A program made the translations under genes and the position numbers. A stretch of 64,000 nucleotides of DNA, from contig DATJTX010000021.1 in the NCBI GenBank assembly GCA_035502855.1, forward strand, positions 124,001-188,000, in the 5' to 3' direction. The notes below the pieces were generated by a model. That model was given only the letters and a program-made list of their open reading frames with translations. It was not told the DNA's origin and did no database searches. The number at the start of each line of letters is the position of its first letter. Within the stretch, counting starts at the first letter, position 1. The stretch comes from Candidatus Baltobacteraceae bacterium. Its GTDB lineage: Bacteria; Vulcanimicrobiota; Vulcanimicrobiia; Vulcanimicrobiales; Vulcanimicrobiaceae. This document shows, in pieces, positions 18,491 through 20,761 of the stretch.

Positions 18491-18913
18491 ATGTCCGATC
18501 CCTACCCCTCCTCCGCCCTCGCCGGGCGGGTCCGCGCTTTGGCCGAGCTGCTCGTCGAGACCGATTTGCTGCGCCTGCGGATCGAGCGCGAAGGGGAGGA
18601 GATCGAGCTCGGCCGCCGGGCGATGCACCCGGACGTGGTGCCGGAGGTCCCGGCCGATCTGGGCGCGCTCGATGCCCGCCCCGCCCGAGCCGAACAGATC
18701 CGGGCCGATCTGGTGGGAATCTTTCACCTGAGCCGCCCGGCGCCCGCCGAGGGCGATCTGCTCGAGGGCGACCGCGAACTGGCCTTCATCGAGGCACTCG
18801 GGATTCGAAACCCCGTGCGCAGTCTGGGGCCGGGACGGATTCTGGCGATTCGGCGCGGAGACGGGCAGCCCGTCGAATACGGCTCGGTGCTCTTCGAAAT
18901 CGATCGCGGATGA
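18491..18913 (+). CDS. AccB-like (BCCP) protein lacking the biotinylation lysine
   Basis: The 140-residue product matches AccB throughout. The N-terminal helix LAELLVETDLLRLRIEREGE corresponds to the BCCP segment before the linker, and a short linker leads to a biotinyl-domain-like C terminus (about 68-138) ending RRGDGQPVEYGSVLFEID. The carrier motif, however, is EALGI (101-105) instead of EAMKM, so the acceptor lysine is Gly104. The protein cannot be biotinylated at the usual site. It sits 19 bases upstream of accC, where accB normally lies. Comparable non-biotinylated BCCP relatives (BADC proteins) in plants bind and down-tune acetyl-CoA carboxylase; a similar role here is an inference. 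The ATG at 18491 was preferred over upstream in-frame codons. Confidence 0.8.
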   Translation: MSDPYPSSALAGRVRALAELLVETDLLRLRIEREGEEIELGRRAMHPDVVPEVPADLGALDARPARAEQIRADLVGIFHLSRPAPAEGDLLEGDRELAFIEALGIRNPVRSLGPGRILAIRRGDGQPVEYGSVLFEIDRG

Positions 18914-18917
18914 GCGC

Positions 18918-18935
18918 GGAGGGTCTCTAACCATT
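18918..18935 (+). promoter_or_regulatory. Shine-Dalgarno and ATT initiation codon of accC
   Basis: GGAGGG (18918-18923) is followed after nine bases by ATT (18933-18935), which begins the reading frame I-FNKVLIANRGEIALR. No ATG, GTG or TTG lies in frame between the site and the conserved motif; the next one, a GTG at 19008, would delete that motif. Confidence 0.6.
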
Positions 18936-20360
18936 TTCAACAAGGTTCTCATCGCCAATCGCGGCGAGATCGCGCTGCGCATCAATCGTGCCTGCCAAGA
19001 ACTGGGCGTGCGCACGGTGGCGATCTTCTCCGAAGCGGATCGTGAGTCGTTGCACGTGCGACAGGCCGACGAAGCCTTTTGCGTCGGTCCGGGTCCGGTG
19101 CAGCGCTCGTATCTCAACATTCCGAACATCATTTCGACCGCGCTGATCACCGGCTGCGATGCGATCCATCCCGGATACGGCTTTCTGGCTGAGAACGCGC
19201 GCTTCGCGCAGATCTGCGCCGACCACGGACTCACGTTCATCGGTCCCAAACCCGACGTCGTCGCGGCGATGGGTGACAAGGCGACGGCCAAACGCGTCAT
19301 GCGCGAGGCCGGCATCGCGACGACGCCGGGCACGGACATTCTCGAGACGCTCGACGATGCGCTTTCGGCGGCGCAGGAGATCGGTTATCCCGTACTGCTC
19401 AAGGCAACGGCGGGCGGCGGCGGCAAGGGGATGCGCGCGGTGGAGAGCGCCGGCGAGATGGAGCGTGCGCTCGCGAGCGCGACTGCCGAGGCCGAGGCGA
19501 GTTTCAAAGACGGCCGCGTCTACTTGGAAAAGCTCATCCTCGATCCGCGTCACATCGAGGTCCAGGTTCTGGGCGATGAATTCGGATCGGTCGTCCATTT
19601 GGGCGAACGCGATTGCTCGGTGCAAAAGCCGTCGCATCAAAAGTTGATCGAAGAGTCGCCGACTCCGCACCTCTCGGATGCGGCGCGCAGTTCGCTGCTC
19701 GAGATGGCCGTTCGCGCCTGCAAACACGTTCAATACAGCAATGCAGGCACGCTCGAGTTTCTCGTCAGCGGCGATGACGTGTACTTCATGGAGATGAACA
19801 CGCGCATCCAAGTCGAGCATCCGGTAACCGAGATGGTTTATAGCGTCGATTTGGTCAAAGAACAGATTCGCATCGCTGCCGGGGAGCCGCTTGGTTACGC
19901 GCAGCACGATCTGGCCCTACGGGGCCATGCGATCGAGTGCCGTATCAACGCCGAAGATCCGCACAACAACTTCGCGCCGCAGGCCGGTACGCTGACCAAG
20001 GTCGTTTTCCCGGGCGGCCCGGGCGTGCGCGTCGACACGCACGTGTTCTCGGGTGCGGTCGTGCCGCCGTACTACGACTCGATGATCGCCAAAGTGATCG
20101 CGTTCGGCGCTTCGCGCGAAGCGGCGATCGCGCGCATGGAACGCGCCCTGCGCGAGACCGTCGTCGAGGGCGTCAGCACGACGATCGGCTGCTGCCTCGA
20201 GATCTTGGCGACGCCGGAGTTTCGCGAGGGACGCTACGACATCGGCTTCCTCCCCAAATTGCTTAAGCAATTTGGGGACCCCGTTGTTTTAACCGGCGCT
20301 TCGCCTGCGGCTCCGCGCCGTCGACGGGCAAAGCCCGTCGGGTCTCCCACCGACACCTGA
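18933..20360 (+). CDS. accC: acetyl-CoA carboxylase biotin carboxylase subunit AccC
   Basis: ATP-grasp enzyme that carboxylates biotin in acetyl-CoA carboxylase. The 475-residue product starts FNKVLIANRGEIALR after an apparent ATT start codon behind a well-placed GGAGGG. It contains the ATP-grasp glycine loop LLKATAGGGGKGMRAV, the catalytic region EMNTRIQVEHPVTEM and IECRINAEDP. The C-terminal end departs from the family: after YDIGFLPKLLKQFGD comes an Arg/Pro-rich tail encoded by a 28-bp palindrome and a further hairpin, as if repeats had been captured. A GTG at 19008 is the first conventional start but would remove the essential N-terminal strand. The TGA overlaps the nusB ATG. Confidence 0.93.
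   Translation: MFNKVLIANRGEIALRINRACQELGVRTVAIFSEADRESLHVRQADEAFCVGPGPVQRSYLNIPNIISTALITGCDAIHPGYGFLAENARFAQICADHGLTFIGPKPDVVAAMGDKATAKRVMREAGIATTPGTDILETLDDALSAAQEIGYPVLLKATAGGGGKGMRAVESAGEMERALASATAEAEASFKDGRVYLEKLILDPRHIEVQVLGDEFGSVVHLGERDCSVQKPSHQKLIEESPTPHLSDAARSSLLEMAVRACKHVQYSNAGTLEFLVSGDDVYFMEMNTRIQVEHPVTEMVYSVDLVKEQIRIAAGEPLGYAQHDLALRGHAIECRINAEDPHNNFAPQAGTLTKVVFPGGPGVRVDTHVFSGAVVPPYYDSMIAKVIAFGASREAAIARMERALRETVVEGVSTTIGCCLEILATPEFREGRYDIGFLPKLLKQFGDPVVLTGASPAAPRRRRAKPVGSPTDT
20251..20340 (+). repeat. 28-bp perfect palindrome and second hairpin inside the accC 3' end
   Basis: Positions 20251-20278 form a perfect palindrome (TCCCCAAATTGCTTA and its reverse complement) in the accC reading frame. 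At 20322-20340, CGACGGGC-AAA-GCCCGTCG forms a second hairpin. Together they encode the odd Arg/Pro-rich tail of AccC. They may act as an attenuating structure ahead of nusB. Confidence 0.8.
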
Positions 20361-20761
20361 TGCCCAGTCGGCGGCAAGGGCGTGAGGCGGCCCTACAAAC
20401 GCTCTATGCGGTCGCGGTGGGACACCGCGATCCCGGTGACGCGCTCGGCGAGACGGTCGGCGAAGGGGTCGAAACCGACTATCGCGCGTTCGTAAAGGAT
20501 CTCGTGCTCGGCACACTCGATCATGCCGCCGAGGCCGACGCCTTGTTGGCGCCGCTTTTGGAGGGATGGACGATCGAACGTTTGCCCACGATCGACCGTT
20601 TGCTCTTGGAGATGGGGACGTTCGAATTATGCCATCGTCCGCTCACACCGCGGGCGGTGGTCATCAATGAAGCGGTGGAGCTCGCGAAGAAGTTTTCGAC
20701 CGAGGATTCCAACCGGTTTGTCAACGGCGTATTGAATGCTATCGCGAAAGAAACGACGTAA
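20360..20761 (+). CDS. nusB: transcription antitermination factor NusB
   Basis: RNA-binding partner of NusE(S10) in rRNA antitermination. The 133-residue all-helical product shows the NusB pattern RRQGREAALQTLYAVAVG at the N terminus, then LAPLLEGWTIERLPTIDRLL and the late INEAVELAKKFSTEDSNRFV-NGVL segment. The ATG overlaps the accC stop, and the end overlaps the penicillin-binding protein gene by 26 bases. Length is typical. Confidence 0.93.
   Translation: MPSRRQGREAALQTLYAVAVGHRDPGDALGETVGEGVETDYRAFVKDLVLGTLDHAAEADALLAPLLEGWTIERLPTIDRLLLEMGTFELCHRPLTPRAVVINEAVELAKKFSTEDSNRFVNGVLNAIAKETT

Follow-up and report, generated by a model that had tools for sequence, protein, structure and literature searches.

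We favor, with modest confidence and by analogy with the BADC proteins of plants, the view that the acetyl-CoA carboxylase of Eremiobacterota includes a dedicated pseudo-carrier subunit that is not biotinylated, namely AccB*. The gene encoding AccB* was found directly before accC in the genome of a Candidatus Baltobacteraceae bacterium, and its product lacks the lysine residue that accepts biotin. Here, AccB* refers to the accC-linked copy, while "true" accB refers to the canonical EAMK copy located elsewhere in the genome. In the window, i.e., the whole stretch of 64,000 nucleotides that was analyzed, the features of the locus are:

18491..18913, + strand: AccB* gene, 140 amino acid residues, ATG start and TGA stop; helix at residues 7–23, hairpin at 28–41, linker at about 43–66 and biotinyl-type barrel at 67–138
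18791..18805, + strand: EALGI (residues 101–105) at the position of the biotinylation motif; Gly104 is the GGG at 18800–18802
18918..18923, + strand: GGAGGG, likely the Shine-Dalgarno sequence of accC
18933..20360, + strand: accC, biotin carboxylase (TIGR00514 at 651 bits, above its cut-off), with an apparent ATT start
20360..20761, + strand: nusB-like gene, which overlaps the accC stop and was assigned by eye from its translation

The AccB* open reading frame and accC were separated by 19 nucleotides in the window. We take the order accB*-accC-nusB to be the classical accBC-nusB order.

Homology, predicted fold and genomic setting of AccB*

AccB* matched Pfam Biotin_lipoyl at 19.4 bits, slightly below the cut-off of 22.1 bits, and the NCBIfam BCCP model TIGR00531 at 30.7 bits, which did not reach the cut-off of 115.2 bits. 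The true AccB from the same genome scored 112.6 bits against TIGR00531 and was also slightly under this cut-off. The best PDB match of the profile of AccB* orthologs was 4hr7_B, the BCCP chain of the E. coli BC-BCCP crystal structure (E 1.6e-12), and the alignment, which begins at profile position 5, takes in the N-terminal helix. The predicted secondary structure contained a helix at residues 7–23 and strands at residues 28–33 and 36–41, i.e., the N-terminal helix and hairpin of BCCP are present. In addition, in the structure predicted by AlphaFold2 with 51 orthologs, a disordered linker connected the helix and hairpin to a biotinyl-type barrel, and the pLDDT ranged from 94 to 98 across residues 71–140. 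Foldseek matches of this predicted structure included Arabidopsis BCCP1 (9a87), 1bdo and 4hr7. The identities between AccB* and true AccB were about 27–34% in local alignments and 30% profile to profile. These profile and structure matches indicate that AccB* is a BCCP homolog with a predicted biotinyl-domain fold.

Similar to bacterial BCCP/AccB (TIGR00531, E. coli AccB), AccB* possesses the same domain order and the position before accC. Different from these proteins, however, AccB* lacks the biotin lysine. The biotin-acceptor motif E-[AS]-M-K-[ML] was absent and EALGI was found instead, as the original prediction for this slot had stated; in the predicted structure, Gly104 lies between the hairpin strands 96–102 and 105–110. 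Moreover, the 5-residue thumb segment is deleted from AccB* in the window's class and degenerate in other classes, whereas both the true AccBs and the AccBs of the comparison phylum described below keep it. AccB* also contains R95-E96, R106, P108 and R110, which are without counterpart in true AccB. Because the defining lysine was tested and is missing, AccB* falls, in functional terms, outside the BCCP family. An "accB" label beside accC need not mean a carrier.

Apart from the accC of the window, no free-standing biotin carboxylase gene was found in the genome. Two further biotin carboxylase matches were frames of 637 and 652 amino acid residues; given that each also contains a biotinyl domain, they apparently encode fused acyl-CoA carboxylase subunits. 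Carboxyltransferase genes and the birA ligase gene were also found. The search of the genome for a second accB, which the original prediction had proposed, identified a canonical copy after hisS on another contig, whose product is 151 amino acid residues long and has both EAMKL and the thumb. Because this true accB adjoins hisS, we rejected the idea that the genome has lost its carrier and assign the carrier function to the hisS-linked accB.

Conservation of AccB* in the class and the phylum

AccB* was searched for in 117 genomes of the class, of which 113 gave a match, and the regions were fetched and aligned. In the accC-linked copies of the window's family (f1) and the next family (f2), the Lys column was occupied by Gly without exception (78 of 78). 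We also looked for relatives with EAMKM throughout and found none, and sequencing error as well as chance was excluded because Gly is invariant in these copies. The dN/dS values of AccB* between close genomes were mostly 0.05–0.25, well below 1, and a pseudogene was rejected as well. AccB* is thus, as judged from substitution rates, under purifying selection with its function retained. The most conserved segment of AccB* was residues 95–112, the former biotin hairpin, with a mean entropy of 0.62 bits compared with 1.35–2.98 bits elsewhere. R95, E101, L103 and G104 were invariant in the 78 copies of f1 and f2, and R106 was found in 77 of them. This pattern points to the hairpin region as a new constrained surface and not one in decay.

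In family f3, the AccB* motif was EAL[KR]L, with Lys in eight members and Arg in five; L197 had one further Arg. The site varied inside one genus of f3, for instance EALKL in G004 and EALRL in G005. The Lys forms of f3 and of G129, which occur in an EALK/ESMK context, might be biotinylated. The AccB* proteins of f3 (L087–L099, L117 and L197) also had a C-terminal extension beyond the barrel.

The true accB of the class encoded E[AV]MK in all 20 loci read (EAMK[LI] or EVMKL). It was linked to hisS in 19 of these loci and in one, L114 of family f2, was found by a second accC. This f2 genome (G018:C292) possesses an extra accB-accC pair (EVMKL; AccC 50% identical) besides accB*-accC. Among the AccB*-negative genomes, six were also without that accC and the seventh had accC at a contig end. 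Thus, loss of AccB* in these seven genomes was rejected, and assembly gaps are the explanation.

The two-gene layout recurred in other classes of Candidatus Eremiobacterota/Vulcanimicrobiota/WPS-2. At the Lys site, the other-class AccB* rows in the tree had Asn (6), Gly (5), Arg (2), Ser (2) or Lys (1). By our reading, Gly, Asn, Ser, Arg and Lys can all be accommodated in a tight hairpin turn, in agreement with a hairpin that was kept when the acceptor was lost. A strong canonical accB match was found in 20 of 23 other-class genomes, with hisS mostly in the fetched flank. G147, a genome with 95% completeness, gave no strong match to true AccB, and its sister genomes have one.

The motif columns were left out of the tree, in which 48 accC-linked rows, drawn from all sampled classes, shared one clade (98/87*), separate from that of the true AccBs (96/91*). 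One more accC-linked row, L244, was unplaced. Because the two copies form separate clades across the phylum, the AccB*/AccB split is at least as old as the radiation of the phylum, with a root too weak for an older date. A recent lineage-specific loss of the lysine was rejected, given that the accC-linked clade spans the phylum.

One comparison phylum, which was reached via a locus titled Hyphomicrobiales, was also searched. The best 30 AccBs of a 60-genome sample from this phylum all contained EAMK with the thumb and were all found beside accC. Across the rest of its 399 genomes, the AccB* profile never exceeded 77.8 bits, compared with 99–182 bits for complete class members. Eight of the top nine matches were readable by the motif pattern, and all eight were EAMK; EAMK was thus found in all 38 AccBs read from this phylum. 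Moreover, a scan of 84,980 species with one class-specific pattern identified 54 loci titled Eremiobacterota, WPS-2, Vulcanimicrobiota or "bacterium," except for one titled Hyphomicrobiales. The latter, L172 (G149:C315), is an AccB* fragment on a short contig of a MAG. Gene transfer was considered for L172. Because the contig is short and the genome has its own EAMKT accB by accC, it is probably a misbinned Eremiobacterota contig. All matches from the plasmid search were weak and of the ordinary biotinyl kind.

Linkage to accC and the accC start codon

The distance between the AccB* stop and the first AccC codon had a median of 4 nucleotides in 92 class loci and 2 nucleotides in 18 others. The dedicated linkage to accC was therefore borne out across the class and phylum loci. 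This short gap suggests translational coupling and near-equal synthesis of AccB* and AccC.

The first codon of the accC frame in the window is the ATT at 18933, which follows GGAGGG. Upstream, no in-frame ATG, GTG or TTG was found, and the first canonical start downstream would cut off the conserved IANRGE segment. The apparent start codon of accC was also rare in 30 of the 92 class loci (L010–L059), with ATT in 19, ATC in 9 and GTT in 2. None of these 30 loci had a canonical start at that position, and 19 of them were without any in-frame one upstream. A strong Shine-Dalgarno sequence was found in 29 of the 30 rare-start loci, compared with about 20 of the remaining 62 loci (p about 1e-9 by Fisher's test), and the Shine-Dalgarno sequence of accC was often made by the final codons of AccB*. 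In other classes, accC had ordinary starts and AccB* was still present. Given that IF3 discriminates against such rare start codons, the synthesis of AccC may be throttled through its rare start. In the window's genome, infC (L282, G000:C23:115521-115730) has an apparent ATA start after GGGAAAACGCC, and IF3 may itself be under rare-start control in this lineage.

Possible function of AccB* and comparison with known systems

Acetyl-CoA carboxylase catalyzes the committed step of fatty acid synthesis. In the heteromeric enzyme, biotin carboxylase is the docking partner of BCCP, whose biotin moves between the two active sites. A lysine-less twin of BCCP that has stayed next to AccC for as long as the phylum has existed would most likely dock on AccC or AccB without carrying CO2. 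We propose that, after an old duplication of accB, the accC-linked copy would have lost the biotin lysine and the thumb, while the hisS-linked copy would have stayed the true carrier. AccB* would be translated immediately ahead of AccC, probably in a coupled manner, and would dock on AccC via its BCCP-like N-terminal helix and remodelled barrel. In the AccC-AccB complex, it would then have a structural or assembly role and determine the number of sites open to biotinylated AccB. The original prediction had posed a BADC-like partner and relocation of the carrier to another gene as alternatives. Each appears to hold in part, because the true accB is beside hisS, yet AccB* is retained under purifying selection.

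BADC proteins, which are without the biotinylation motif and 25–30% identical to BCCP, were first named as inhibitors, and newer work describes them as an assembly glue or cap (PMC11926652). Similar to AccB*, plant BADCs (e.g., Arabidopsis BADC1-3) are BCCP homologs that lack the biotin motif and are found beside a true BCCP. Different from plant BADC, however, AccB* is bacterial, directly precedes accC and is a paralog of the hisS-linked accB. Its origin is likely independent of plant BADC, and we infer from the likeness that it would work in a similar way. The epsilon-type subunits of actinobacterial acyl-CoA carboxylases are small, non-catalytic proteins that also assist assembly as "glue" (PMC11926652; also PMC7835884). 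A small non-catalytic assembly role is what they would have in common with AccB*; different from AccB*, they are not described as BCCP-like and belong to two-subunit acyl-CoA carboxylases. To our knowledge, their sequences are unrelated to BCCP. PII (GlnB) binds BCCP and controls acetyl-CoA carboxylase (PMC5080355). PII, however, has an unrelated fold and is a small-molecule sensor, whereas AccB* is a BCCP paralog in which no sensor domain is apparent. In the literature searched, non-biotinylated paralogs of BCCP are described from plants, and none from bacteria was found. By sequence, AccB* adds to the concept of a pseudo-BCCP, as known from plant BADC, a new bacterial variant that occurs throughout a phylum.

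An assembly partner is more likely than a pure brake, because AccB* would be synthesized together with AccC and lacks a sensor domain. As a competitive brake, AccB* would be a decoy on the BCCP sites of AccC that lowers activity until relieved by some signal, as in the inhibitory model of BADC. Retention of the BCCP-like N-terminal helix and barrel without Lys and thumb, together with the strong conservation of the former hairpin surface, agrees with such a decoy, and some plant work favors inhibition (summarized in PMC11926652). However, a protein made beside AccC, and probably coupled to it, would be a constant inhibitor unless otherwise controlled, and recent plant NMR work argues against a purely inhibitory model (PMC11926652). 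We thus regard a brake as unlikely. AccB* could also have left the carboxylase assembly to regulate something else, such as acc/biotin gene expression or BirA traffic. Its branches are long and it changes rapidly outside the hairpin, which would agree with this, and E. coli AccB is a known regulator of its own operon. Nevertheless, the strict linkage to accC throughout the phylum and the kept N-terminal helix of BCCP make such a departure improbable.

The very short gap to accC, the Shine-Dalgarno sequences within the last AccB* codons and the ATT/ATC starts would all be expected if the AccB* frame served mainly as a leader whose translation is coupled to AccC synthesis and limits it, with a protein of little importance. 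Purifying selection at the protein level, the invariant residues and the retained fold argue against a mere leader, as does the persistence of AccB* in classes where accC starts are ordinary, and we give this explanation very little credence. It is just as hard to regard AccB* as a carrier with another modified residue, a decaying pseudogene or a sequencing artifact. Lys is present in some f3 members. However, Gly, Asn, Ser and Arg are unable to accept biotin, the 78 identical Gly residues and the low dN/dS speak for a maintained protein, and no frame breaks were found among the matches listed.

More tentatively, the heteromeric acetyl-CoA carboxylase of the whole phylum may contain a fifth subunit that is obligate, i.e., an AccC-co-made pseudo-BCCP with an origin independent of plant BADC, and part of the phylum may combine it with an AUU/AUC start of accC coupled to the pseudo-carrier gene. 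If AccB* is indeed a pseudo-carrier subunit, such subunits would have arisen more than once, and AccB* would offer a simple system for the question raised in plants, namely whether they assemble or inhibit the enzyme.
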